Positions 1 to 12,937 of a stretch of DNA of 64,000 bases are shown piece by piece. The stretch spans positions 62,001 to 126,000 of the forward strand of contig NZ_SOEY01000018.1 of assembly GCF_004402535.1 (NCBI RefSeq). Direction: 5' to 3'. Within the stretch, counting starts at the first letter, position 1; the number at the start of each line of letters is the position of its first letter. The notes beneath the pieces were generated by a model. The model did not search any database. It was given only the letters and a program-made list of their open reading frames with translations, and was not told the DNA's origin. Both the position numbers and the translations under genes were made by a program. The DNA is from Cryobacterium glaciale. GTDB lineage: Bacteria > Actinomycetota > Actinomycetes > Actinomycetales > Microbacteriaceae.

Positions 1-304
1 TGCTGTTCACGACCGGGTTGGGTGACAGCCGCATGATGGCGAGGGTCACTCCGAGGATGATCGCGATGATCATCGAGTACACCGTGAGCTGCAGGGTGAC
101 GAACGCCGCCTGGGAGATACGCTGGTCGAATAGATATTTTCCGACCGCCGGCCAGTCGTAGGCCGGGCGCATCGCCGCGTCGGCGATGAACAGGGCGACG
201 ATGAGCAGTAACACGACCGCGAAGGTGTTGCGCCACGGATGGCGCAGGCGAATCGCCTTGATTCCAGGCTCAGTCTTTTCGCCGTTCGCGGCCGTGTTCG
301 TCAT
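1..304 (-). CDS. Polar amino-acid ABC transporter permease, 3' part outside window
   Basis: About 101 residues are visible before the left edge cuts the gene. They show a short cytoplasmic N-terminus, a first membrane helix (TFAVVLLLIVALFIADAAM) and then a segment that begins the HisM/GlnP-type permease domain (QAAFVTLQLTVYSMIIAIILG). In this family such proteins pair with an SBP_bac_3 lipoprotein and a GlnQ-type ATPase, and import polar amino acids across the plasma membrane. The binding-protein gene lies 19 bases upstream on the same strand, so the two are probably one operon. No strong ribosome-binding site is seen in that gap. The substrate cannot be read from the sequence. Confidence 0.8.
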   Translation of the reverse strand, partial: MTNTAANGEKTEPGIKAIRLRHPWRNTFAVVLLLIVALFIADAAMRPAYDWPAVGKYLFDQRISQAAFVTLQLTVYSMIIAIILGVTLAIMRLSPNPVVNS

Positions 305-323
305 GATGCGGGTCGCTTATTCT

Positions 324-1217
324 CTAGCCGTTGGAGGCAGCGTTGATGGTGATGGTGTCGATGCCGCCGTCGGTGACTCCCCAGGCTTCGAGGATCTTGC
401 CGTAGGAACCGTCATCGACCATGGACTGCAGGGCAGCCTGCACGGCTGCCGTCAGCTCAGAACCCTTGTCGACCGTGATGCCGTAGGGCGCCACGTCGAA
501 GCTCTCGCCGGCCGCCTCCAGCTTGCCCTCAGCCTTGCTGATGGCATACAGGGTGACGGGCGAGTCGGCGCTGAGCGCGTCGGCCTTGCCGAGAACGACC
601 GCGTTGGTCGCTTCGTCCTGTGAACCGTAGGTGAGAACTTCGATCTTCTCCAGGCCGGCGGCGGCGCAGGCCGCGTTCTTGGCGGGGAGTTCATCGGTGT
701 CTTCGACCGTGTTGTCCTGCACGGCGACGGTCAGGCCGCAGGCGTTGTCGGGGTCGACGGTTGATCCGGTCGGCGCGGCCCAGAGAATTCCGGCGTTGTA
801 GTAGTTGACGAAGTCGACCTGCTTCTCACGCTCGAGGTTGTCGGTGAACGAGGATTCGCCGATGTCGACGGTGCCGCCGGTGATGCTCGGAATGATGTTG
901 TCGAACGATGCGATCTGGTACTTGGTCGTGAGGCCGAGCTTGGCGGCGATGCCGTTGGAGAGTTCGATGCCCCAGCCGATCGGTGCGCCCGACTCATCCT
1001 TGAACTCGTTCGGCGGGTACGCCGCATCGGTGCCGATCACGAGCACGCCGGCGCTCTTGATGTCCTCGGGGAGCAACGCGACCGCGGCGGCATCCGCTTC
1101 AATGGTGCTTGTCTCGCCGGAGGGCGTCGTGGCGGCCGGGGTGGAGTTGTCGACACAGCCGGTCAGCAGCAGAACGGCGGCGGCGGCGAATGCCGGAACA
1201 ATGTAGCGTGCGCGCAT
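324..1217 (-). CDS. Amino-acid ABC transporter substrate-binding lipoprotein (SBP_bac_3)
   Basis: This 297-residue protein has a lipoprotein signal with lipobox LLTGC (Cys about residue 21), so it should be anchored outside the membrane. The mature part fits the solute-binding family 3 pattern: GVLVIGTDAAYPPNEF at the start of lobe 1, then FDNIIPSITGGTVDIG, and a second lobe with KADALSADSPV. This family binds polar amino acids, and some members bind cystine or S-substituted cysteines. AGAAGGAAG lies just upstream of the ATG and supports the start. It precedes the permease gene at the left edge. Its position next to the sulfur/lyase-type cassette at 1.9-5.7 kb makes an unusual amino-acid ligand possible, but that is inference. 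Confidence 0.85.
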   Translation of the reverse strand: MRARYIVPAFAAAAVLLLTGCVDNSTPAATTPSGETSTIEADAAAVALLPEDIKSAGVLVIGTDAAYPPNEFKDESGAPIGWGIELSNGIAAKLGLTTKYQIASFDNIIPSITGGTVDIGESSFTDNLEREKQVDFVNYYNAGILWAAPTGSTVDPDNACGLTVAVQDNTVEDTDELPAKNAACAAAGLEKIEVLTYGSQDEATNAVVLGKADALSADSPVTLYAISKAEGKLEAAGESFDVAPYGITVDKGSELTAAVQAALQSMVDDGSYGKILEAWGVTDGGIDTITINAASNG

Positions 1218-1355
1218 GGCACTTCCTTCTTTATTTGGTCGAAAATGCGCGGATTCGCCGGTGAACCCACACGCGGGTAAGACCTAACGAGCCTAGTACA
1301 ACCGTCGACGCCTGATTTCGAGCTCCGGGAGCACGAAGACGGTTTTGACGAGCGG

Positions 1356-1919
1356 ATGCTGCGGATCTATCGTCGAGGGGTGCCCACCACCAGCCCGAAC
1401 ATTTTGTACACGTCGCCGACCGACCCGCTCGCCCTCCCGCTGGTGGCCGAGCTGTCGCGGGAGTACGACGAGCGGTACGGCCTGAACGACGGCATTCCGT
1501 CGTCGGCGGAGCTCAGCCGGTATCCGGCGAGGCGCTTTCAACCGATCGACGGCGGCGCCTTCCTGCTGCTCGTGGAGAACGGCCGGGCGGTCGCCGGCGG
1601 CGCGTTCATGCGGGCCGAAGACAACGACGCTTGTCCTGACACCGCGGTCGAGGTCAAACGGGTGTGGACGCATTCCGCCCATCGGCGGCGCGGCCTGGCC
1701 CGCCAGGTGATGGCCGAGCTGGAGGCCGAAGCCGGCCGCCGCGGCATCCGTTCCATAGTGCTGACCACGGGAGCACGCCAACCCGAAGCGGTCGCCCTGT
1801 ACCGCTCGCTCGGCTACGAGCCGCAGTTCGACCTCGACGGCGACTGGGAAGCAGTCGGCTATCTGGAGTTTCGCAAAGCACTCGACGCGGTCGATGAGTC
1901 GGGCGAGACGCCGCTGTAA
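1356..1919 (+). CDS. GNAT family N-acetyltransferase
   Basis: This 187-residue protein is a single GNAT domain. The acetyl-CoA-binding motif A is clear around residues 104-127 (VKRVWTHSAHRRRGLARQVM), followed by the motif B region ALYRSLGYEP. Such enzymes transfer acetyl from acetyl-CoA to an amine, and the acceptor is not predictable here. It is convergent with the ammonia-lyase-like gene, 12 bases apart. The reading frame is open further upstream but has no ATG, GTG or TTG there, so the ATG at 1356 is the longest possible start. In Bacillus organosulfur salvage operons a GNAT N-acetylates the substrate before a flavin monooxygenase acts, which makes the location noteworthy. Function remains unproven. 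Confidence 0.75.
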   Translation: MLRIYRRGVPTTSPNILYTSPTDPLALPLVAELSREYDERYGLNDGIPSSAELSRYPARRFQPIDGGAFLLLVENGRAVAGGAFMRAEDNDACPDTAVEVKRVWTHSAHRRRGLARQVMAELEAEAGRRGIRSIVLTTGARQPEAVALYRSLGYEPQFDLDGDWEAVGYLEFRKALDAVDESGETPL

Positions 1920-1931
1920 GTACGTCGCAAT

Positions 1932-3386
1932 TTAGCTGGCAAGCAGTTGCACCGCCCCGGAAACGAGGTCGGCCGACGGCAGGCCCCGGCCCCAGAGGGC
2001 GTACAGCGCGGGCAGGAGCCCGGCCGCTGACCCGCCGAGCGTGCCCGCCGGATTCGTCGGCTCGAGCAACTGCGCGGCGTGCAGGGCTTCAATCGCCAGA
2101 ATCTCGAGGGTGAGCGCGCGGCTGCGCTGCAGCAGCTGCAGGGCCAGCGGGGCGAAGGTGGCCTGGTCCTCGACGCCAGACAGCGCGGCACCGGCCATAC
2201 TCGCCGGGGTGGCCAGCTGGCGAATCTCGGCCAGGTTCGCCGCGGCCGAATACCAGAGCAGCCCGGGAATCGAACTCGTGCCGGTCGCGCGATCGGGCCG
2301 GGCCAGCTCGGACAGCGCGCTGATGCGCCGCTCACTCGCCGACGCCAGGTGCGCGAGCGCCACCCGCAGCGCGTCGAATTGCAGGGCCAGGGCGAGCACC
2401 TGAAAATTACCGCCCGACACGATGCGACCGGTGTCGACGTCGACGAGCGGGTTGTCGGAGCGGGCGTTGAGTTCAGTCGTAAGCTCGGTGCCGGCCGCCG
2501 CGAGCTGGTCGCGCAGTGCGCCGTGGAGTTGCGGCACGGTGCGCAGGGACAGCGGATCCTGCACGGTGCTCGCCGTCTCGAATGCCGCGCTGCCAGCGAG
2601 GTGTGCCAGAACGGATGCTGCCGCCTGCGCCTGCCCGCGGCGCCCGGTCGCGCGCGCCACGGCCTCGTCGAAGGGACTGAGGTTGCCGCCGCCGCCGCGC
2701 ATCGCGATCGCCTCGAGGGAGAGGGCGACGGCCAGGTCGGCGGCGAGCGCGAGACGGTCGAGCCTGGCCAGCTCGAGCGCGCCGACGCCGACGCTGTAGG
2801 CATTGCTGCTGAGACAGGCGAGGGCCTCGCCGGGAGCCAGATCGAACGGTTCGAGGCCGGCCGTTGTCAGCGCCTGGCGGCCGGGAACGACGGCGCCCCC
2901 GACGACCGCATGGCCGGTTCCGGTGAGCAGGGCGGCCACGGCCGCGAGGTGGGTGAGGTCGGCCGCGCCGACCGAGCCGCGCGCCGGCACGAGCGGCACG
3001 ACCTGCGCGTTCAGCAGGGCGGCCCAGGCGTCGGCCAGGGCGGGGCGCACGCCGGATCCGCCGCGGGTGAACCCGGCCAGACGAACGAAGGCGAGGGCAC
3101 GCACCTCGTCAGCCGGCAGGGCTGGACCGATACCGCCGCAGTGATTGGCGATGATGCGCCGCTGGAACGCGGCGAGGTCGCGCGGGTCGACGGTGGTGTC
3201 GCGTCCGGCACCGAGTTCGGTGTTAAGCCCGTAGACCGGGGCAGCTGCGGCGAGCGCGGCCGCGACGACGGCGTGGGAGCGGGCCAGAAGCTCGGCGGCC
3301 CCGCTGTCGATGGCGACCGAGGCTCCGGCGGCGACTGCCGCGACCTGCACGCGCGTGACCCGGTCGGTGCCGAGAACGACGGGCAC
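1932..3386 (-). CDS. Histidine/aromatic ammonia-lyase homologue lacking the MIO-forming Ala-Ser-Gly
   Basis: At 484 residues it has the usual HutH/PAL core length. Many scaffold residues are kept: Tyr52 in VYGLNTELG, Asn195 in LSSNAYS, VQDP with Arg282, DNPLV (311-315), GGNF (325-328) and Glu406 in GVEDQA. The canonical GSVGASGDLAPLAH motif is instead GSVGAADLTHLA (137-148). The Ser-Gly needed to form the electrophilic MIO cofactor is missing, and the Tyr of QDPYSLR is Leu279. The reading frame is intact, so this is not a frameshift. Ordinary ammonia elimination by the known mechanism is therefore doubtful. It is the last gene of a coupled cassette: its GTG start overlaps the preceding TAG stop (TAGTG). 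Confidence 0.8.
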   Translation of the reverse strand: MPVVLGTDRVTRVQVAAVAAGASVAIDSGAAELLARSHAVVAAALAAAAPVYGLNTELGAGRDTTVDPRDLAAFQRRIIANHCGGIGPALPADEVRALAFVRLAGFTRGGSGVRPALADAWAALLNAQVVPLVPARGSVGAADLTHLAAVAALLTGTGHAVVGGAVVPGRQALTTAGLEPFDLAPGEALACLSSNAYSVGVGALELARLDRLALAADLAVALSLEAIAMRGGGGNLSPFDEAVARATGRRGQAQAAASVLAHLAGSAAFETASTVQDPLSLRTVPQLHGALRDQLAAAGTELTTELNARSDNPLVDVDTGRIVSGGNFQVLALALQFDALRVALAHLASASERRISALSELARPDRATGTSSIPGLLWYSAAANLAEIRQLATPASMAGAALSGVEDQATFAPLALQLLQRSRALTLEILAIEALHAAQLLEPTNPAGTLGGSAAGLLPALYALWGRGLPSADLVSGAVQLLAS

Positions 3387-4687
3387 TAGAAGTCCCGGAG
3401 GTTGGCGCGCAGGCCGCCTCGCCCAAGCTCGGTGCGCAGCAGGCCGCGGCGGCGAAGGGCCGGCACGAGCGGATCGAGGGTGCGGTGCACGTGCGCCGGA
3501 TGTACCTGCCCGGTGAACAGAAAGCCGTCGCCGCCGACAGCATCCGCGAGCTCGGCGAGATGCTCGGCCACTTCGTCGCCGGTGCCGATGATCGCCAGGC
3601 CGTCCTTGTTCGCCCTGGCCTGCAGAATGTCGCGCAGCGTCGAACCGGACGGCGCCGACTTCACGAAATTGTCGAGGGTGCCCTGGTTGCTGTTGGTCGT
3701 CAGCTCGGGCAGCGGCTCGTCGAGGTCGAAGGCCTTGAAGTCGACCCCGGAGAGGTAGGAGACGCCCTGCAACGCTTCGTCGATCGCGGCCTGGGTGAGT
3801 TCGGCCCGGTGCGCGCGCACCGAGGCGGATTCTTCGGCATTCGCGGTGAGGATCGGGTTCACCACGAACAGCACGCGGATGTCGTCGGGATTACGACCGT
3901 GGGCGGCGGCGACGGCGCGCACCGACTCGCGGAAGTCTCGCATCCGCTCTGGGGTGGAGGCGAGGGCGAGCACGACGTCGGAATTCTTGCCGGCGAAGTC
4001 CTGACCGCGGCCGCTCGCGCCGGCCTGCACCATGACCGGCTCTTCGGTCGGCGGCACCGTGTTGAGCGGGCCGCGTACCTGGAAGAACCGACCGTGGTGG
4101 TTGATCGGGTGCACCTTGGTGTGGTCGGCGAAGACGCCGTTCACGGTGTCTTCGAGTACCGCACCCGGCTCCCAGCTGCGCCAGAGCTGACGCACCACGT
4201 CGACCCACTCGTCGGCGCGGTCGTAGCGCAGATCGTGTTCGACCTGCTGATCGAGCCCATAGTTCTGCGCGGCGAGGTCGCTGCCGCTCGTGACGACGTT
4301 GAAGCCGAGGCGCCCGCCGGCGAAGTGCTGCAGGGTCGCGAGCAGCCGGGCCGCGGTGAACGGGTCGTAGAAGCTCGCGCTGAGCGTGGGCACGATGCCG
4401 ATTCTGCTCGTCGCGGCGAGGAGGTAGGGCACGAGCGGCAGCGGATCGTGCTTGGGAACGAAGCGGGCATTCTTCAGGTTGACCTCGGCGGTGCCGCCGT
4501 AGGTGTCGGGCACAGCCACCCCGTCTTCGATGATCAGCAGGTCAAGGCCGCTCGCCTCGAACAGGCGGGCGGCATCCTGGTAGACCGGCGGCTGTTTCCA
4601 GTCATAGCCGATGCCGTAGCTGGGGTCGTTCCAGCCCTGCACGCCGAAGCCCGCGCCGAGAAACCAACCGAAATGCTGCAGGGTCAT
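3386..4687 (-). CDS. Flavin-dependent monooxygenase, NtaA/SnaA/DszA (LLM) family
   Basis: This 433-residue protein matches the bacterial luciferase-like fold of the NtaA/SnaA/SoxA/DszA group. Visible markers are the N-terminal GWNDPSYGIGYDW, the substrate/flavin region RLGFNVVTSGSDLAAQNYG, HHGRFFQVRGPLN and VMVQAGASGRGQDFAGKNSDVVLA. Family members use FMNH2 from a separate reductase to oxidise organosulfur compounds, aminopolycarboxylates or S-substituted N-acetylcysteines. No reductase gene is adjacent. The ATG overlaps the stop of the PLP-enzyme gene by four bases (ATGA), and the stop overlaps the next start by one base, so the three genes are translationally coupled. A longer open frame upstream lies inside the PLP gene and was not used. 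Confidence 0.85.
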   Translation of the reverse strand: MTLQHFGWFLGAGFGVQGWNDPSYGIGYDWKQPPVYQDAARLFEASGLDLLIIEDGVAVPDTYGGTAEVNLKNARFVPKHDPLPLVPYLLAATSRIGIVPTLSASFYDPFTAARLLATLQHFAGGRLGFNVVTSGSDLAAQNYGLDQQVEHDLRYDRADEWVDVVRQLWRSWEPGAVLEDTVNGVFADHTKVHPINHHGRFFQVRGPLNTVPPTEEPVMVQAGASGRGQDFAGKNSDVVLALASTPERMRDFRESVRAVAAAHGRNPDDIRVLFVVNPILTANAEESASVRAHRAELTQAAIDEALQGVSYLSGVDFKAFDLDEPLPELTTNSNQGTLDNFVKSAPSGSTLRDILQARANKDGLAIIGTGDEVAEHLAELADAVGGDGFLFTGQVHPAHVHRTLDPLVPALRRRGLLRTELGRGGLRANLRDF

Positions 4688-5727
4688 GAGGGGTCCTTCG
4701 GAGTTGGGGCGCTGATGGTCGGGGTCAGCAGGCCCTGGCTCGCCAGCCAGGCCTGGTCGAAGGCCTTGGTGAGGTAGTTGGTGCCCGCGTCGGGCGAGAT
4801 CACGACGATCACCGAACCCGGCGCGGCGGTGCGGGCGACCTGCAGCGCGACGGCGACCGCCAGGCCGGAGGACGGCCCGAGCAGCAGGGCCTCCTCCCTG
4901 GCCAGGGCGCGCACGGTGGCGTAGACGGTGTAGTTGTCGATCGTGATGACGTCGTCGAGCACCGAGCGATGAAAGTTGTGCGGCCACCAGTCCCGCGGCC
5001 AGCGTGAGCCGACGCCGTCGACGAGGATCTCGGCCTCCGCTCCCCCGTCGTAGGTCGACCCGGCGGGGTTGGCGCCGATCACGCGCACCCGGCCGTCGGA
5101 GGCCTCCTTGAGAAAACGGCCGGCGCCGCTCACGGTGCCTCCGGTGCCGATCGCGGCGACGAAGTGGGTCACCCGGTGGGCGCTCTGCCGCCAGATTTCG
5201 GGGCCGGTGCTCGCGTAGTGCGCGCCCGGATTGTCGTCGTTCTCGAACTGCTGCGACTGCCAGGCGCCGGGTATCTCGCTCGCGATGCGTTCGGAGACCG
5301 CGCGGGTGTTGCGCGGGCTGTCCGGCCGCGCGGTGCCGTCGGCTTCGACCAGGGTCGCGCCGTAAGCGGTGAGTAAGGCGAGTTTCTCGGCTGAGATCTG
5401 GTCGGTGTGCACGATGACGACCGGATGCCCGGTGAGTCGCCCGACCAGCGCGAGGCCGATTCCTGTGTTGCCAGAGGACGATTCCACGATCGTCGCGCCC
5501 GGCGCGAGCGCACCGCTGGCTTCGGCCTGCCGGATGATGTTGAACGCGACCCGATCCTTGGCCGAACCGCCGGGGTTTCGCCCCTCGAGCTTGACCAGCA
5601 CCCGGGCGGGCAAGCCGGCGGCGAGCACGCTTAGGGCGACCAGCGGGGTGTTGCCGACCAGGTCGGCGACGCTCGCGAGCACGTCTTCGCGCAGCGGTTC
5701 GGCCGCGAGGTCACGGATTCTGGTCAT
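4684..5727 (-). CDS. Cysteine synthase / cystathionine beta-synthase-like PLP enzyme
   Basis: This is a 347-residue fold-type II PLP enzyme. The PLP lysine is Lys57 in EGRNPGGSAKDRVA, the amino-acid loop is ESSSGNTGIG (82-91), and a phosphate-binding GTGGTVSGAG follows. The NPGGSAKDR form and the C-terminal FDQAWLASQGLL resemble CBS, SbnA or CysK2-like enzymes more than classic CysK. The expected chemistry is beta-replacement on O-acetylserine, O-phosphoserine or serine with a sulfur or amine nucleophile. I chose the ATG at 5727, with GGAGAG just ahead. The frame can be extended to a TTG at 5790, but that codon borders the terminator hairpin. First gene of the cassette with the monooxygenase and the lyase homologue. 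Confidence 0.85.
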   Translation of the reverse strand: MTRIRDLAAEPLREDVLASVADLVGNTPLVALSVLAAGLPARVLVKLEGRNPGGSAKDRVAFNIIRQAEASGALAPGATIVESSSGNTGIGLALVGRLTGHPVVIVHTDQISAEKLALLTAYGATLVEADGTARPDSPRNTRAVSERIASEIPGAWQSQQFENDDNPGAHYASTGPEIWRQSAHRVTHFVAAIGTGGTVSGAGRFLKEASDGRVRVIGANPAGSTYDGGAEAEILVDGVGSRWPRDWWPHNFHRSVLDDVITIDNYTVYATVRALAREEALLLGPSSGLAVAVALQVARTAAPGSVIVVISPDAGTNYLTKAFDQAWLASQGLLTPTISAPTPKDPS

Positions 5728-5788: not shown

Positions 5789-5832
5789 AAAAACGGATGC
5801 CGCGCAGCCGGCTGGCTTACGCTGCATCCGTT
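5789..5832 (-). terminator. Rho-independent terminator after the iron-siderophore binding-protein gene
   Basis: An inverted repeat of AACGGATGC (5792-5800) and GCATCCGTT (5824-5832) encloses a second small palindrome, CAGCCGGCTG (5805-5814). Read on the minus strand the stem ends in GCATCCGTTTTTG, a hairpin followed by a T-run. It starts about 10 bases after the stop of the binding-protein gene. The PLP/monooxygenase/lyase cassette downstream therefore probably has its own promoter in the roughly 60 bases that follow. Confidence 0.7.
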
Positions 5833-5842
5833 CTGAGCTGGG

Positions 5843-6844
5843 CTACTTGACAGCGGCGGCGAGCAGGGCCACGTAGTCCGTCAGGCCCCAGCTCAGCGAG
5901 AGTCCGGTGGGCGGGGAGACCGAGCTGATGAAGGCCGCGCCGACCGGGGACGCGACCGTGCCGGACTGCACCTGCGGCATGGCCTGGGCGTAGCTCGCGG
6001 TAAGGAACGCGTCGGACTCCTCCTGGGTCGAACCGAAGTTCACCAGCAGGTCGCTGTCGAGCTGGTCGAGTTGCTCGTAGCTGAGCGTGTAGTAGAAGCT
6101 CGCCTCGTCGGTCGCGAGCTCGTCGACGGCGGGCGCGCTGACGAAGCCGAGGTCGAGGGTGAAGTCGACGCGGGGGTCTTCCTTCTTGTAGATGTAGAAC
6201 GTCCCGGCGCTGTCGCTGGTGAGCGCGATGGTCTTGCCCGCGAATTCGGGGTGCGCGGCGGCCTGGTCGGCGATCTCGGCGTCGATCGACGCGAGCAGGG
6301 TGCTCGCTTCATCGGTCTTGCCGAGCGCGGTTCCGGTGATCTCGATGAGGTCGCGCCACGGGGTGGCCCAGGCGTCACCCGGGTAGGCGACGACCGGGGC
6401 GATCTCGCTGAGCAGGTCGTATTCCTGCTCGGTGATGCCGGAGTAGGCGGCGAGAATCACGTCGGGGGCGGCGGCGGCGATGTCTTCATAGGGCGGCTCC
6501 TGGGTGTCGGGCAGGATGACCGGCATCTCTTCGCCGTCGAGCGCCTCGTTGATCCACGGCAGCACGCCGTTCTCGTCGCCGGCGTAGCTTTGGAACGGCA
6601 TCGCGACCGGAATCACGCCGAGCGCGATCGCGTCGTCGGCACTGCCCCAGCCCCAGGTCACCACGCGGGTCGGCTGCTCGTCGATCGTGGTCTCCCCGAA
6701 GGCGTGCTCGATGGTGACCGGAAAGCTGCCGGATGCCGCGGCGCCGGGATCGGTCGAGTCCTCGGCGGCGGCCGTGCAACCGCTCAGGCCGAGGCCGAGG
6801 ATGCTCGCTGCGGCAGCGAGCGTGAGGGTAAGGCGTCGGGACAC
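5843..6844 (-). CDS. Iron-siderophore ABC transporter substrate-binding lipoprotein
   Basis: This 333-residue lipoprotein (lipobox LGLSGC, Cys23) belongs to the FepB/FecB-type helical-backbone binding proteins. Typical parts are VTIEHAFGETTIDEQPTRVVTWGWGSADDAIALGV near the N-terminus, then YEDIAAAAPDVILAAYSGITEQEYDLLSEIAPVVAYPG. It should capture a ferric siderophore outside the membrane and deliver it to the two permeases encoded upstream. An excellent iron box lies about 30 bases before the start, overlapping the end of the ATPase gene. Transcription can therefore start separately from the permease operon. The ligand (hydroxamate, catecholate or other) cannot be told. Confidence 0.9.
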   Translation of the reverse strand: MSRRLTLTLAAAASILGLGLSGCTAAAEDSTDPGAAASGSFPVTIEHAFGETTIDEQPTRVVTWGWGSADDAIALGVIPVAMPFQSYAGDENGVLPWINEALDGEEMPVILPDTQEPPYEDIAAAAPDVILAAYSGITEQEYDLLSEIAPVVAYPGDAWATPWRDLIEITGTALGKTDEASTLLASIDAEIADQAAAHPEFAGKTIALTSDSAGTFYIYKKEDPRVDFTLDLGFVSAPAVDELATDEASFYYTLSYEQLDQLDSDLLVNFGSTQEESDAFLTASYAQAMPQVQSGTVASPVGAAFISSVSPPTGLSLSWGLTDYVALLAAAVK

Positions 6845-6873
6845 GAAGTTCTCCAGTTCGTTAAGGTCAATAC

Positions 6874-6892
6874 TAAGGGTAGCCTACCCTAA
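6874..6892 (-). promoter_or_regulatory. IdeR/DtxR iron box upstream of the siderophore-binding gene
   Basis: The 19-mer TAAGGGTAGCCTACCCTAA is a near-perfect palindrome. It matches the IdeR consensus TWAGGTWAGSCTWACCTWA at 17 of 19 positions. It sits 29 bases before the binding-protein start and covers the stop codon of the ATPase gene. Iron-loaded IdeR/DtxR would be expected to repress here. Confidence 0.85.
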
Positions 6893-7692
6893 ATTAAAAC
6901 CCGGCCGTGGAACCGGCCGATCGGCACGACCATGGGTGCGCCGCAGACTGGATCGGGAACGATTCGCGCCTCGAGGTCGAAGGCGTGCCGCACGATCTCG
7001 GCGGTGAGTGTCTCGGCAGGCGTGCCGTTGGCGACGATGCGCCCGGCGCACATGACGACCAGGTGGTCGGCGTAGCGGGCGGCGAGGTTGAGGTCGTGCA
7101 GCACCATCACGACGGTCGTGCCGCGCTCGCGGTTGCGCTCGAGCAGCAGGTCGAGCACCTCGATCTGGTGGGTCACATCGAGAAAGGTGGTCGGTTCGTC
7201 GAGCAGCAGTATCTCGGGGTCCTGGGCGAGGGCCATGGCGATCCAGACGCGCTGGCGCTGCCCGCCGGAGAGGTCTTCGAGGCGACGTGCGGCGAGTTCG
7301 TCGGTGTTGGTGGCGGCCATCGCGGCGGCGACGATCTCGTCGTCGGTGCTCGACCACTGCCGAAACCAGCCCTGGTGCGGGTAGCGGCCGCGGCCGACGA
7401 GGTCGGCCACGGTGATGCCCTCGGGGGCGACGGGCTGCTGCGGCAGCAACCCCACCACGGTCGCGACCTTCTTTCCGGGCAGCGCCGTGATGTTGCGGCC
7501 GTCGAGGGTGACCTGGCCGGCATCCGGTGTGATCAGCCGGGACAGCCCCTTGAGCAGGGTGGACTTTCCCGAGGCGTTGGCTCCGACGATGACGGTGATC
7601 GCGCCGGGCACGATGGCCAGGTCGAGGTTCTCGATGATGGGCGTCTGGTCGTAGCCGAGGGTGACGCCCTCGGCGCGCAGCAGGTGGGTCAT
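6889..7692 (-). CDS. Iron-siderophore ABC transporter ATP-binding protein
   Basis: This 267-residue ATPase has Walker [12 protein letters not shown] (residues about 33-43), signature [17 protein letters not shown] and Walker [14 protein letters not shown], and it closely follows the FepC/FhuC type. It should power siderophore import by the two adjacent FecCD permeases at the inner face of the membrane. The ATG overlaps the permease stop by one base (TGATG), which indicates coupling. Its last codons contain the iron box used by the binding-protein gene. Confidence 0.93.
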
Positions 7693-8750
7693 CAGGCACC
7701 CTTTCCGGTTGTGTTGCTGGTGGCGAGCAGCCAGAGCAGGTAGGGGGCGCCGATGGCGCCCGTGATGATTCCGGCGGGCAATTCCAGCTGCCCGGGGAGC
7801 AGATGCTGGGCCGCGAAGTCGGCCACGGTCGTGATGAGAGCACCGACCAATGCTGTGGGAATGAGGGCGAGCCCGCCGGTACCGACCACGCGCCGGGCGA
7901 TCGGCGCCGCGACGAAGGCCACGAAGGCGAGCGGGCCGACCGCCGCTGTCGCCGTCGCGGCGAGGGCGACGGCGATCACGAGCAGCACGAGCCGGGTACG
8001 TTCGGCACCGACGCCGAGGCTGCGCGCAAGTTCATCGCCGAGCTGCAGGGCGCGCAGCCGGCCGCTCAGCACGCGCATGACGGGCAGCAGCACGAGCAAC
8101 ACCACCGCCACGACCGAGATGTCCTGCCAGCGGGCACCGCTGACGCTGCCGACCAGCCAGAGCAGGGCGCCCTGGGCGTCGTTGAGGTCGGCGCGGGAGA
8201 GCAGATAGCCGAGCAGGCCCTGCACCATGAACGCGACCCCGACGCCGATCAGAACGAAACGGTAGCCGGCCACCCCGCCGCGCGAGGCCAGCAGGTAGAT
8301 GACACAGGCGACGATGACGGCCCCGGCGAACGCGGCGAGAGAGGTGCCGACGCTTCCGAAGCCGAGGATGAGCATTCCGAAAACGGCGGCGGCGCTCGCT
8401 CCCCCGGTCACCCCGATGATGTCGGGGCTGGCGAGCGGGTTGCGCAGCACGGTCTGGAACAGCGCGCCGGAGAGAGCGAACGCCCCTCCGACGAGCACGG
8501 CGAGGGTCAGCCGCGGCAGCCGCAGCGAGAGCACGATGAAGTTCTCGCTCTGCGTGCCCTGGCCGGTGAGGGTGCGCAGCAGGTCCGGCACGCTCAGCGA
8601 GTACGCGCCGACGGTGAGGCTGAATGCGGCGACGGCCACGAGGGCGCCGACAAGCACGAGCACAATCCCCCGCTCGCGTCTGCTCCGCCGAGCGCGTGCC
8701 TGGGTGAGCGGGGCGGCATCCGCTGTTCTCTCGCTGAGCGTGGTCATCAC
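7692..8750 (-). CDS. Iron-siderophore ABC transporter permease (FecCD family), second subunit
   Basis: This 352-residue hydrophobic FecCD permease shows the hallmark LRLPRLTLAVLVGGAFALSGALFQTVLRNPLASPDIIGVTGGAS, GAERTRLVLLVIAVALAATATAAVGPLAFVAFVAAPIARR and a C-terminal LPGQLELPAGIITGAIGAPYLLWLL. It forms half of the membrane channel for ferric-siderophore import. The start is ambiguous between GTG 8750 and ATG 8747, and both overlap the previous stop. Confidence 0.92.
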   Translation of the reverse strand: MMTTLSERTADAAPLTQARARRSRRERGIVLVLVGALVAVAAFSLTVGAYSLSVPDLLRTLTGQGTQSENFIVLSLRLPRLTLAVLVGGAFALSGALFQTVLRNPLASPDIIGVTGGASAAAVFGMLILGFGSVGTSLAAFAGAVIVACVIYLLASRGGVAGYRFVLIGVGVAFMVQGLLGYLLSRADLNDAQGALLWLVGSVSGARWQDISVVAVVLLVLLPVMRVLSGRLRALQLGDELARSLGVGAERTRLVLLVIAVALAATATAAVGPLAFVAFVAAPIARRVVGTGGLALIPTALVGALITTVADFAAQHLLPGQLELPAGIITGAIGAPYLLWLLATSNTTGKGA

Positions 8751-9805
8751 AGGCCCGCCAGTTTCACGCGGCGCACGAGGGCGATGAGCACCGGCGCGCC
8801 GAGGAACGCGACGACGAGGCCGGCCTCGATTTCGCCGGGCTGCGCGATGACGCGGCCGAGGACGTCCGCCGCGACGAGCAGGGTCGGGCCGAACAACGCG
8901 GAGAAAACGATGATGAGGCGGTAGTCGGGGCCGGTGATCCAGCGGGCCACGTGCGGCACGGCGAGGCCGACGAAGACGATCGGGCCGGCCATGGCCGTCG
9001 CCGAGCCGCAGAGCAGGACGATCGCCACGGCGCAGACGATGCGGGCGAGTATGAGGTTCTGGCCGAGACCACGGGCGAGGTCGTCACCGAGGGCGAGGGT
9101 GTTGAGCATGCGAGCGGCCACGACGCTAAGGATCGCGCCGACCAGGATGAACGGGGCGAGCGGCAGGGCGGCGTCGAGGCCGCGAGCCACGAGCGAGCCG
9201 GCCGCCCAGAACCGATAGCGGTCGAAGGCCTCGGTGTCGGCGAGCAGCACGATCGTGATGAGCGAGGTGAACGCCGCCGTGAGCGCGGTTCCGGCGAGGG
9301 CGAGCTTGACCGGCGTCGCACCCTCCCGGCCGAGCGAACCGATCAGGTAGACGATCGTCGCGGCCACGGCAGCGCCCGCGAAGGCGAACCAGACATAGCC
9401 GAGCGAGGAGGTGACGCCGAACCAGGCGATGCCGGCGACGACGAACAGCGAAGCGCCGGCGTTGACCCCGAGCAGGCCGGGGTCGGCGAGCGGGTTGCGG
9501 GTGACGCCCTGCATGAGGGCGCCGGCCAGGCCGAGGGCGACCCCGGCCAGGAGGCCGACGACGGTGCGCGGCACCCGCAGGTCGAGGATGACGACGCGGT
9601 CAGTCAGCGCAGTGTCGGTCACGGTTTCATCGGGGTTGACCAGGGCATCGACCACGGTGCCGAGGCCGATCTCCCTGGTGCCGACCAGCAGCGAGGCGGC
9701 AATACTGAGGCCGAGCAGCACGAAGGCCAGAGCGAAGCCGATGACGACGCGACGCCGACGGGTGCGAGAGGGCGCGGACGCGGGTCGTTCGCCGATCAGG
9801 GTCAT
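8747..9805 (-). CDS. Iron-siderophore ABC transporter permease (FecCD family), first subunit
   Basis: This 352-residue FecCD permease is a paralogue of the following gene. It shows LRVPRTVVGLLAGVALGLAGALMQGVTRNPLADPGLLGVNAGAS, LCGSATAMAGPIVFVGLAVPHVARWITG and QPGEIEAGLVVAFLGAPVLIALVRR. It is expected to dimerise with the downstream permease. The ATG overlaps the stop of the siderophore-interacting protein gene by four bases (ATGA), so the reductase, both permeases and the ATPase form one coupled operon. Confidence 0.92.
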   Translation of the reverse strand: MTLIGERPASAPSRTRRRRVVIGFALAFVLLGLSIAASLLVGTREIGLGTVVDALVNPDETVTDTALTDRVVILDLRVPRTVVGLLAGVALGLAGALMQGVTRNPLADPGLLGVNAGASLFVVAGIAWFGVTSSLGYVWFAFAGAAVAATIVYLIGSLGREGATPVKLALAGTALTAAFTSLITIVLLADTEAFDRYRFWAAGSLVARGLDAALPLAPFILVGAILSVVAARMLNTLALGDDLARGLGQNLILARIVCAVAIVLLCGSATAMAGPIVFVGLAVPHVARWITGPDYRLIIVFSALFGPTLLVAADVLGRVIAQPGEIEAGLVVAFLGAPVLIALVRRVKLAGL

Positions 9806-10794
9806 TGAGCTTCGGACCGGCCCAGCCGCCAGTAACCCATGAAGGCCACTCGCGACCGGTCGATGCCGGTCTCGCTCACCAGAAAACGTCGCAGCAGTTT
9901 GATCATGCAGGATTCGCCGGCGAGCCAGGCGTAGAACCCCGTTCCGGCCTGGTCGCCCGGCGATTCCCAGAGCAGGTCGCAGTCCACGTCGACCTCCGCG
10001 AGCGGCTGCGGGGTGGCGGCGACCGCCGTATCAACCAGGGGGCGATTGCGGGCGACCCATTCGCGCACGGCATGATCGAGCCGTTGCCCGTGCGGCGCCA
10101 GGTCGCGGGCCAGCCACGTGATCTCGGAGCCAGCAGGGAGAAGGAGGGGCAGGGCATCCGCTTGGGTGGGCACCTCGATGAAGGCGCGGGCGCGGCGGCC
10201 GGCGGGCAGGCTCTCGAGGATGCTGCAGATGGCGGGGGCGGCGGTTTCGTCGCCGGCCAGCAGCAGTTCGGCCGCCTGGGCGGGGTGCCAGTCGAGGCCG
10301 ATGGCGCGGTCGGGGCTGCGCTCGTCGGGGCCGACGATGAGAACATCGCTGCCGATCCGTGCGGCCTGCAGCCAGCGCGCAGCGGGACCGAGCTGGCCAT
10401 GGCCGTGGCTGTTGGGGATTCCGTGGGTGACGAAGTCCACGTCGATCTCACGTTGTTCGGGCCGCACCGCGCGAATCGTGTAGGTGCGAAAGGGGTTGCG
10501 TTCGGCATCGGGCAGCGCCCGCCAGCGGGCGTACCAGCTGCCGTCGGCGATGGTGCGCTCGTCGGCGGCGCCGATGTCGGCCAGGCCCAGTCCGGGCAGC
10601 GGCAGCACGATCTTGACGCGCTGGTCGAGCCCGGCGGTACCAAAGGTGTCAAACTGTGTGCCGAAGAAGGTCACCCGGGTGAAGTGATCGCTGAGAGAAC
10701 GAATGCCCACCACCGTCGCGCGATACGGACGGTACGCCGGGCGGTCAGCGACCGCGGTGGCGTCGAGGCCGGTCTCGATTGGTAAGGTAAGCAT
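9802..10794 (-). CDS. Siderophore-interacting protein (FAD-dependent ferric-siderophore reductase)
   Basis: This 330-residue protein is of the ViuB/SIP type. It has an N-terminal FAD-binding barrel (RPYRATVVGIRSLSDHFTRVTFFG; NPFRTYTIRAVRPEQREIDVDFVTHG) and a C-terminal NAD(P)H-binding domain with LAGDETAAPAICSILESLP and FYAWLAGESCMIKLLRRFLVSETGIDRSRVAFMGYWRLGRSE. Such enzymes release iron in the cytoplasm by reducing the imported ferric siderophore. It is the first gene of the import operon. The iron box covers the ATG itself, so repression should be tight and the mRNA may be nearly leaderless. Confidence 0.92.
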   Translation of the reverse strand: MLTLPIETGLDATAVADRPAYRPYRATVVGIRSLSDHFTRVTFFGTQFDTFGTAGLDQRVKIVLPLPGLGLADIGAADERTIADGSWYARWRALPDAERNPFRTYTIRAVRPEQREIDVDFVTHGIPNSHGHGQLGPAARWLQAARIGSDVLIVGPDERSPDRAIGLDWHPAQAAELLLAGDETAAPAICSILESLPAGRRARAFIEVPTQADALPLLLPAGSEITWLARDLAPHGQRLDHAVREWVARNRPLVDTAVAATPQPLAEVDVDCDLLWESPGDQAGTGFYAWLAGESCMIKLLRRFLVSETGIDRSRVAFMGYWRLGRSEAQ

Positions 10795-10801
10795 TACCTT
10801 A
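10783..10801 (-). promoter_or_regulatory. IdeR/DtxR iron box between the reductase operon and the MFS gene
   Basis: TAAGGTAAGCATTACCTTA matches the IdeR consensus at 18 of 19 positions. It overlaps the start codon of the siderophore-interacting protein and lies about 80 bases before the divergent MFS start. A weaker second palindrome centred on GGCATGCC (about 10803-10821) adjoins it and could be a secondary site. Both flanking genes may thus be iron-repressed. Confidence 0.85.
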
Positions 10802-10883
10802 GTATGGCATGCCTTGCCTCAGTACGGGCGAATGGGCTCAGGTTGGACGGCCCGCACCCGCCCGACCCTAGACTGAAATCATT

Positions 10884-12092
10884 GTGAAAAGTTACTGGAC
10901 CCTGCTGCGCACGCCCGGCGTATCCCGCCTGATCGGCGCGCAGCTGACGGCGAGATTTCCCTTCGGAATGCTTTCGCTCGCCTTTCTCATTCACATCGAG
11001 CAGATCTTTGATTCCTACGGCGCGGCCGGGCTGGTGCTCGGTGCCATGAGTATCGGCCAGGCCATCGCCGGTCCGCTCACCAGCCGGCTGATGGGACGGC
11101 TCGGAATGCGCCCGGTGATCATCGCGACCATGTTCATCTGCGCCGTGTCGATCATCGTGATGGCGCTGGTTCCGCTGTCGGTCGTGAGTCTCATGCTCAT
11201 CGGATTCGTCGCCGGCCTGTCCACCCCGCCGATCCAGCCGGCCGTGCGCACCATCTATCCCAAGATCGTGAACTCGCGCCAGCTGACCCCGTTGTTCTCG
11301 CTCGACGCGTCGGCGCAGGAGATCATCTGGGTGCTCGGCCCGGTGATCGCGACCTTTGTGGCGCTGCAGGTGTCGACGACCGCGGGCATCCTGCTCGCCG
11401 CGTTCTTTCTGGTCGCCGGCGGAATCTGGTTCGTCTCGCTGCCCGAAGTCGGCCGGGTGCGCATCCCGCGCAGTCGCCGCAAGCTCGGCGTCGTGCTCAA
11501 GAAGCCCGAAGTGTTGCTCAGCACCATCGTCGGCTTCACACTCGTCGCCGCCTGCGCCGCCGTCGAGGCCGGAGTGGTCGCGGTGTTCGGCCACGGCAGC
11601 GCCGACGCCGGCTGGGTGCTCGGCATCTTCGCTATCGGTTCGCTCATCGGCGGGCTCGCACTCGGCCATGCCCCGATCGGCCCGTGGGCCCTGGCCGCCC
11701 GCATGCTCATCGTCACGATCGGGCTCGCCCTGGCGAGTCTGTGGCTCACCTTCTGGTGGCTGTCGCTGGCGCTGCTCCTGGCCGGGGTTGGCATTGCGCC
11801 CGCTTTCGCCGTGCTGTTCGGCATCGTCTCGGCGAGCGTGAAGTTCAGCGACACCGCCGAGGCCTACGGCTGGGTCGGCACCGGCCAGCTGATCGGCGCC
11901 GCGATGGGCTCCGCCATTGCCGGCTTCTCGATCGACCGCTCCGGTCCGGTCTCGGCCATCTACGTCGCGGCGGGCTTTGCCGCCCTCGGCTGCATCATCC
12001 CAGCGCTCGGCCGCCGCTGGCACCCCGACCTGCGCGGCCGTGACATCAGCCCCATCCCCGACACCGAGCCGATCCAAATTCAGGTTTCGTAG
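10884..12092 (+). CDS. MFS transporter, probable exporter
   Basis: This 402-residue major facilitator has about 12 hydrophobic segments. The loop after helix 2 reads GPLTSRLMGRLGMRPVIIA, the family's conserved cytoplasmic loop. It is a small-molecule MFS of the type often annotated as drug or siderophore exporter. The start is GTG at 10884. It is divergent from the siderophore-uptake operon across a shared iron box, which suggests export of a metallophore or drug resistance linked to iron. The substrate is inference only. The aldo/keto reductase gene follows 29 bases downstream and may be cotranscribed. Confidence 0.85.
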   Translation: MKSYWTLLRTPGVSRLIGAQLTARFPFGMLSLAFLIHIEQIFDSYGAAGLVLGAMSIGQAIAGPLTSRLMGRLGMRPVIIATMFICAVSIIVMALVPLSVVSLMLIGFVAGLSTPPIQPAVRTIYPKIVNSRQLTPLFSLDASAQEIIWVLGPVIATFVALQVSTTAGILLAAFFLVAGGIWFVSLPEVGRVRIPRSRRKLGVVLKKPEVLLSTIVGFTLVAACAAVEAGVVAVFGHGSADAGWVLGIFAIGSLIGGLALGHAPIGPWALAARMLIVTIGLALASLWLTFWWLSLALLLAGVGIAPAFAVLFGIVSASVKFSDTAEAYGWVGTGQLIGAAMGSAIAGFSIDRSGPVSAIYVAAGFAALGCIIPALGRRWHPDLRGRDISPIPDTEPIQIQVS

Positions 12093-12121
12093 GCCAAATC
12101 CAGGTCTCGTAGCATGGTGTG

Positions 12122-12937
12122 ATGACTTCCCTCACGCTCAACGACGGCCACCTGATTCCCCAGCTCGGTCTCGGGGTCTACAAAATAGCGGATGCCCTCG
12201 CCGCCGACACCGTGCAGGTCGCGCTGGACGCCGGGTACCGTCACGTCGACACCGCCGCGCTCTATGAGAACGAGGTCGGCGTCGGTCAGGGACTCGCCCG
12301 CTCGAGTGTGCCGCGCGAGGACGTGTTCGTGACGACCAAGGTGTGGAATGACCGCCACGGCTATGACGAAACGTTGAAAGCATTCGACGAGAGCCTGGCC
12401 AAACTCGGCCTCGACTACGTCGACCTGTATTTGATCCACTGGCCGGCGCCGCAGCAGAACCGCTACGTGGAGACCTGGCAGGCCCTCGAAGCGCTCCGAG
12501 CCACCGGCCGTGCCCGCTCGATCGGCGTCTCCAACTTTCACCCGTACCACCTGGACCGGCTGCTGAATGAGACCGATATCGTGCCAGTGCTCAATCAGGT
12601 GGAGTTGCACCCGTGGCTGCCGCAAGCAGGCGTGCGTGCGTATGACGCGGCCCACGGCATCCGTACCGAAGCGTGGTCACCCCTGGCCCGCGGGCGCGCG
12701 ATCGCCAACCCGACGCTCGATGCGATCGGCGGCCGCCACGGCAAATCAGCCGCGCAGATCGTGATCGCCTGGCACCTCGCGCTCGGCAACATCGTCATTC
12801 CCAAGTCGGTCACCCCGGCGCGCATTCGCGCCAATATCGACGTGTTCGACATTGTGCTCGACGACGACGACCTCGCGGCTATCGCCGCGCTCGAAACCGG
12901 CGAGCGCACCGGCAAAGACCCGGACGACCTCGACTGA
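12122..12937 (+). CDS. Aldo/keto reductase (2,5-diketo-D-gluconate reductase-like)
   Basis: This 271-residue TIM-barrel oxidoreductase carries the AKR tetrad: Asp and Tyr in DAGYRHVDTAALYENEVGVG, Lys in TTKVW and His in LYLIHWP. GVSNFHPYHLDRLL, NQVELHPWLPQ and the NADPH-binding IPKSVTPARIRANIDVFD are also typical. It should reduce carbonyls with NADPH in the cytoplasm. The natural substrate is not predictable. The frame begins GTG-ATG and I prefer the ATG at 12122. It follows the MFS gene on the same strand. Confidence 0.9.
   Translation: MTSLTLNDGHLIPQLGLGVYKIADALAADTVQVALDAGYRHVDTAALYENEVGVGQGLARSSVPREDVFVTTKVWNDRHGYDETLKAFDESLAKLGLDYVDLYLIHWPAPQQNRYVETWQALEALRATGRARSIGVSNFHPYHLDRLLNETDIVPVLNQVELHPWLPQAGVRAYDAAHGIRTEAWSPLARGRAIANPTLDAIGGRHGKSAAQIVIAWHLALGNIVIPKSVTPARIRANIDVFDIVLDDDDLAAIAALETGERTGKDPDDLD

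Follow-up and report, generated by a model that had tools for sequence, protein, structure and literature searches.

The DNA stretch analyzed here, called the window, comprises 64,000 nucleotides of the 3.7 Mb genome of Cryobacterium glaciale (C27:62001-126000). Three coupled genes on its reverse strand encode a pyridoxal phosphate (PLP)-dependent, beta-replacing enzyme similar to cystathionine beta-synthase (CBS; 4684..5727, 347 amino acids), an NtaA/DmoA-type monooxygenase dependent on flavin mononucleotide (FMN; 3386..4687, 433 amino acids) and a lyase of the aromatic-amino-acid-lyase family (1932..3386, 484 amino acids, GTG start). The lyase lacks the residues that form 4-methylideneimidazole-5-one (MIO), the catalytic group of this family. 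We regard its lyase as a new branch among the MIO-less lyases, and the fixed operon that contains it as new too. Our tentative proposal is that it acts as an accessory catabolic operon and frees sulfur from a small, histidine-derived organosulfur compound resembling ergothioneine.

The PLP and monooxygenase genes overlap by four bases (ATGA), the monooxygenase and lyase genes by one base, and both overlaps agree with an earlier note on this DNA that had described the three genes as coupled. An alternative start of the PLP gene further upstream, at 5790, is possible. That note had also called the trio a candidate for an undescribed pathway. No publication on it was found in the literature searched, which mostly excludes subscription papers and includes PMC13405746, PMC9706529 and PMC9732360, each available in part.

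Conservation and distribution of the trio

A genome collection was scanned with an alignment of 32 lyase sequences, which gave 58 loci. Two of these (L096 and L097) hold cyanobacterial or Melainabacteria lyases without trio partners; the other 56 are actinobacterial. The monooxygenase gene adjoins the lyase gene in 55 of the 56 and the PLP gene is near in 55 of the 56, both misses (L058 and L046) being contig ends. Two more loci (L011 and L016) were mapped for partners and are not counted among the 56. Since the linkage recurs in 55/56 loci of other actinobacteria, chance linkage of the three genes is excluded. Confinement of the trio to this strain, which the earlier note had named as grounds for refutation, is contradicted by the survey. 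One MIO-less branch is fixed to the monooxygenase and the PLP enzyme in common soil actinobacteria. Of six further loci from the family, five contain the full trio, and a contig end truncates the sixth (L175).

The monooxygenase is the most conserved of the three proteins (64–87% identity to the window protein in other complete trios, 64–86% within the scan), with 56–74% for the PLP enzyme and 45–63% for the lyase. The gene order is PLP-monooxygenase-lyase in Microbacteriaceae-type loci and monooxygenase-lyase-PLP in Micrococcaceae-type loci, where the family names are in part our assumption from the genus names. The PLP gene is divergent in one locus (L062). Overlaps were counted for the gene pairs examined in 62 loci by choosing the in-frame start nearest to the stop, a choice that favors small gaps. 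Counted in this way, monooxygenase and lyase genes overlap by one base in 26/59 pairs, lyase and PLP genes by four bases in 31/36 and PLP and monooxygenase genes by four bases or one in 10/24.

Within the genus, a full lyase is present in two of 57 genomes, and the two lyases are 64% identical to each other. Other lyase matches in the genus are 34–38% alike, as expected of HutH. A third genome carries a decayed remnant of the trio (L016, G006:C27:26871-29258), in which 140 residues of the lyase are left and the remaining part of the monooxygenase is interrupted by an in-frame stop. The GNAT acetyltransferase and solute-binding protein (SBP) genes beside this remnant are free of stops. In the family, 23/299 genomes match the lyase at E 1e-110. 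In a draw from the phylum, 18/396 genomes match at E 1e-100. These 18 comprise the window's own genome, one more trio (L115), three proteins with the MIO triad and 13 MIO-less lyases for which the DNA examined shows no trio partners.

The lyase belongs to a MIO-less clade with ergothionase

The lyase matches PF00221 (Lyase_aromatic) with 366 bits. Two HutH models score it under their cut-offs (302 vs 524 bits and 287 vs 539 bits). Residues 137–144 read GSVGAADL (2955..2978, reverse strand), one residue shorter than GSVGASGDL, so that the X-Ser-Gly triad of histidine ammonia-lyase (HAL) is gone. The loss of the triad had been read correctly from the DNA in the earlier note. The trio set for the signature consists of the window lyase and the best 120 of 3396 matches. 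The motif GSVG[AS][AGS]DL is present in 120/121 of these proteins, and the exception (P0012) is a piece of 316 amino acids.

Ergothionase of Treponema denticola (PDB entries 6s7j and 6s7q) is the known MIO-less relative to which the sequence points; the earlier note had not named it. It is the ergothioneine trimethylamine-lyase and the sole MIO-less member of the family met in the partly available literature examined. The known chemistry within the MIO-less clade is, in these sources, the elimination of an amine. Both enzymes have the aromatic-amino-acid-lyase fold, no MIO and the identical one-residue deletion. They share Tyr52, Ser193, Asn195, Gln276, Arg282, Phe328 and Glu406 and mostly Leu279 and Phe281. 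The identity in the structural alignment is 27%, and the operon partners of ergothionase differ from those of the trio lyase. The identity to Pseudomonas putida HAL, which has the same fold but keeps the MIO-forming triad, is 35%.

In a tree of 54 of the 83 rows collected (every second trio and ergothionase-type row and two of seven HutH rows), the lyase and ergothionase fall into one MIO-less clade with support 100/100. Placement of the T. denticola enzyme shows the trio lyases as a separate long branch inside a larger MIO-less clade. Structural comparison was tried as an arbiter between ergothionase and HAL and is not decisive: VIA places ergothionase 1.7 Z ahead, Foldseek places HAL first.

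The active sites of the two types differ. Residue 62 is Arg in 118/121 trio lyases and Lys in all 120 ergothionase-type proteins (the best 120 of 2050 matches). Residue 379 is Tyr in 120/121 and Lys in 115/120, respectively. Arg309 is present in 117/121 trio lyases vs none of the 120. The lysines at positions 62 and 379 are those that we take to be essential in ergothionase. Because two arginines are specific to the trio lyase, the alignment suggests an extra acidic group on its substrate.

A second lyase homologue in the window genome is 37% identical to the trio lyase. Seven HutH-like copies from genus mates have a Cys-Ser-Gly triad. A lyase homologue on a Klebsiella pneumoniae plasmid (L113, 501-1979) has the altered motif GSVGYLIAT; next to it are a gene of the HutD family and one for a solute-binding protein of the ABC type.

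The monooxygenase and the PLP enzyme

The monooxygenase matches PF00296 and scores 369 bits with the NtaA/DmoA subfamily model TIGR03860, above the cut-off of 279.7, which bears out the NtaA/DszA type named earlier. It reaches no equivalog cut-off. DmoA, DszA and YtnJ are its nearest solved relatives; solved relatives also include nitrilotriacetate and EDTA (ethylenediaminetetraacetate) monooxygenases, and YtnJ is of the YtnJ/MoxC kind. DmoA, DszA and YtnJ act on C-S bonds, the nitrilotriacetate and EDTA enzymes on aminopolycarboxylates. The trio enzyme shares the TIGR03860 subfamily with NtaA, DmoA, DszA and YtnJ but differs from them in its constant association with a lyase and a PLP enzyme. 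Several clustered NtaA/DmoA-type genes, 36–47% identical to the trio monooxygenase, occur at three other loci (L176, L177 and L179 in genomes G004, G005 and G031); at L176 and L177 they adjoin frames that look by eye like ABC transporter genes.

The PLP enzyme matches PF00291. Its best NCBIfam model is that of CBS (TIGR01137, 339 bits vs a cut-off of 510), and no curated NCBIfam cut-off is reached among the 25 families listed. CBS (Rv1077) is also its best solved relative (315 bits, the next having 224). The PLP motifs GGS.KDR, SGNTG and GTGGT are intact and conserved to at least 97% in 61 aligned rows. With 347 residues the protein is too short for CBS domains. The window genome contains another CBS-like gene (a frame of 476 amino acids, 47% identical to the trio enzyme) and CysK-like genes; thus the trio gene is an extra copy. 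A proline racemase family gene lies close upstream of the trio PLP gene in one locus (L170, 4442-5455), and a similar frame is seen by eye in L173.

Proposed release of sulfur

The sulfur proposal rests on the linkage with overlapping ends, the MIO-less clade, the active-site signature and the sulfur context of trio loci elsewhere. Organosulfur scavenging is the most economical model because it combines the relatives of the monooxygenase, the extra PLP copy and a lyase of the ergothionase clade. The trio of these soil and cold-habitat actinobacteria probably takes sulfur from an ergothioneine-like or S-substituted amino acid; every reaction and substrate named here is one that we infer. The lyase would eliminate an amine, trimethylamine in the known relative, by plain acid/base catalysis with the help of Tyr52, Glu406, Arg62 and Arg309, in a role that lysines fill in ergothionase-type enzymes. 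The monooxygenase, supplied with FMNH2, would cut the C-S bond, and this step may precede or follow that of the lyase. The CBS-like enzyme would fix the freed sulfur on a serine-type acceptor and give cysteine or a thioether. If true, this adds a route of organic-sulfur recycling in soil bacteria, with a concrete set of substrates testable with the three purified enzymes.

The special case of ergothioneine transsulfuration is a long shot. Here, the CBS-like enzyme would join the thione sulfur of an imidazole of the ergothioneine type to a serine-type acceptor to form an S-(imidazolyl)cysteine. The monooxygenase would split the C-S bond at the ring and release cysteine directly, and the lyase, with its two additional arginines, would act on either the conjugate or the oxidized scaffold to eliminate the amine. 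If true, cysteine would be regained from ergothioneine sulfur in a new way, and the aromatic-amino-acid-lyase family would gain a new chemistry.

Sulfur genes recur near the trio in other genera. A MetZ-like gene is present in 35/63 trio loci (33 at 92% or more, two at 34–35%) and a small rhodanese-like protein in 33/63. SulP occurs in 11 of the 63, a two-domain sulfurtransferase in 10, an FMN reductase in four and a second NtaA/DmoA-type monooxygenase in three. Representatives were compared with family models. MetZ (L048) is above two cut-offs, the FMN reductase (L078) is above that of MsuE (243 vs 212.5), and the second monooxygenases of L046 and L090 are above that of TIGR03860. The L046 sulfurtransferase is above the Pfam rhodanese cut-off. 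The position of the sulfurtransferase gene varies: in Leifsonia it lies upstream of the PLP gene, in L046 past the GNAT gene and in L171 past the importer.

Several observations weigh against the proposed function. Next to the trio, no sulfur gene was recognized in the window's own locus or in the genus. The sulfur neighbors sit in other genera and are raw counts without a random-locus baseline; the loci with MetZ, the small rhodanese-like protein and SulP belong to closely related Micrococcaceae, and much of this is shared synteny, so that the counts are not independent. SulP (L059, L092) is above the Pfam cut-off but below that of NCBIfam. The best model of the sulfurtransferase (L041, L046) is mercaptopyruvate sulfurtransferase, below its cut-off, and the small rhodanese-like protein (L048), named by eye, matches no NCBIfam model. 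NtaA-type enzymes can cleave C-N bonds as well. Neither of the two lysines that ergothionase-type proteins conserve is present in the lyase, and Foldseek ranks HALs above ergothionase. The importer described below belongs with the amino-acid importers rather than with those for betaines, and is not specific to the trio in the genus. Finally, urocanase is missing in three of the 24 trio genomes, including one that is 99% complete. It is found in the other 21, in one of these by two short pieces only, which weakens urocanate as an obligatory product.

A riboswitch acting on the trio was looked for in seven loci, and none reads into the trio. SAM-IV (S-adenosylmethionine) riboswitches lie in two Micrococcaceae-type loci (L048, 8333-8447, and L059, 6595-6706) on the strand of the MetZ operon, which is divergent from the trio.

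Neighboring genes and alternative explanations

The lyase gene is followed by a GNAT acetyltransferase gene on the opposite strand (1356..1919, forward strand), a possible fourth member according to family models and neighborhood counts. Next come the genes of a polar amino-acid importer of the ATP-binding cassette (ABC) type, assigned by family models: an SBP_bac_3 solute-binding lipoprotein (324..1217, reverse strand), a permease whose start only is in the window (2..304, reverse strand, continuing past the left edge) and an ATPase. In the extended locus (L009) the complete permease gene is found at 11297-12304 and the ATPase gene at 10530-11297. A siderophore-type uptake operon with a FecB-like SBP, an ATPase, two permeases and a siderophore-interacting protein occupies 5843-10794.

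In three relatives the trio-less site consists of the siderophore operon, then a GNAT gene (G036) or nothing (G026, G019), then the SBP, permease, ATPase and a helicase. The siderophore genes are in the same place in all three (84–95% identity), and none of the 62 other trio loci has a siderophore-gene match of 80 bits. Thus, the siderophore operon and importer belong to the genus backbone, to which the trio is an accessory addition. A match to the importer SBP is found in 57/57 genus genomes, the trio being present in only two plus one remnant, so the importer is not a trio-specific part within the genus. Importer and GNAT do stand beside the trio, as noted earlier; the idea of a trio-linked importer is not upheld for this genus. 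These findings also make it highly improbable that the trio makes or breaks a C-N linked metallophore, a model that the earlier note had drawn from pathways with SbnA-like enzymes and aminopolycarboxylate monooxygenases and for which the siderophore operon within the window and a weak SbnA score would speak. The SbnA model (TIGR03945) scores the PLP enzyme weakly (207 bits vs a cut-off of 350), far below CBS, and the 14 proteins of this locus that were compared with Pfam include no SbnB-type (ornithine cyclodeaminase family) protein. The metallophore link was rejected.

The main rival is that S-substituted cysteines are salvaged much as by the yxe/ytm operons of Bacillus. The substrate would be imported and N-acetylated by GNAT, the monooxygenase would cleave the C-S bond oxygenolytically, and the leaving group and the sulfur would fall to the lyase and the CBS-like enzyme. 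This rival is possible, though on the unlikely side. A GNAT gene lies within 5.2 kb of the lyase gene in all 26 Microbacteriaceae-type loci (26/63 overall; two cut by contig ends), but no GNAT match lies within this distance in 37/37 Micrococcaceae-type loci. In the genus, GNAT matches at E 1e-40 in 14/57 genomes, two with in-frame stops. The 13 that are at least 72% alike include all three trio or remnant genomes, but at least ten genus mates have GNAT without the trio. The importer is near the trio in 18/63 loci and directly upstream on the same strand in four (L054, L078, L090, L171), yet in the genus it is present regardless of the trio. Its SBP has Arg and Asp positions that align with amino-acid binders, residues whose roles we assume to be the same. 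In favor of this rival, one of the solved monooxygenase relatives is YtnJ/MoxC. A yxe locus is defined by at least three clustered components of the YxeK, YxeL, YxeMNO, YxeP and YxeQ types in the part of PMC9706529 available. The trio locus clusters the importer, GNAT and FMN monooxygenase, three of these five at the level of family, not orthology. In this they resemble, also in many Microbacteriaceae-type loci, the yxe/scm operon of Bacillus subtilis for S-(2-succino)cysteine breakdown. The trio locus differs in having a lyase and a PLP enzyme in addition, not all trio loci have GNAT and importer, and the route described in that part of PMC9706529 is without an aromatic-amino-acid-lyase homologue. 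An M20 deacetylase is not found among the 14 proteins of the trio's own locus that were compared with Pfam. Of the salvage model put forward earlier, sulfur salvage as such fits the wider context, and the deacetylase expected of it is absent from these proteins.

Breakdown of a nitrogen compound, a betaine or an aminopolycarboxylate, appears improbable. The monooxygenase would cut a C-N bond like NtaA, the lyase would remove the amine and the sulfur genes would be bystanders. The nitrilotriacetate and EDTA monooxygenases, the amine elimination known for the MIO-less clade from partly available sources and the proline racemase family gene in L170 fit this explanation. However, it has no evident place for the CBS-like enzyme, sulfur genes are near trios of both families at differing positions, and the one FMN reductase tested exceeds the MsuE cut-off.

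Neighbors of other MIO-less lyases

The clade of MIO-less lyases is broad, and its members occur in several distinct genomic settings. A gene for a urocanase N-terminal domain and one for an OpuAC betaine-binding protein adjoin the lyase gene in L138; a known importer of ergothioneine also belongs to the quaternary-amine kind (PMC9732360, available in part). An M20 hydrolase gene is near the lyase gene in L141, together with a urocanase-like frame seen by eye, and urocanase-, dihydropyrimidinase- and carbamoylase-like frames are seen by eye in L096 and L097. The MIO-less lyase of Rhizobium bangladeshense has a betaine SBP, an ornithine cyclodeaminase family protein, a PhnD/SsuA SBP and a putative sulfate exporter as neighbors. 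In Rhizobium acidisoli there are a betaine ABC importer and two luciferase-like monooxygenase (LLM) oxidoreductases, one of them 33% identical to the trio monooxygenase. These neighbors would fit ergothioneine-type substrates. For the orphan relatives, no common partner was seen by eye in six of the eight loci L116-L123; L140 was left out of the reading by eye. Self-made ergothioneine as the source of the trio's substrate was rejected: EgtD is absent from the window genome and from 23/24 trio genomes.

Two loci of other actinobacteria have two aromatic-amino-acid-lyase homologues close together (L139, 5522-10834, and L141, 54-5431). ABC genes are near the pair in L139, and the urocanase-like frame is near the pair in L141.

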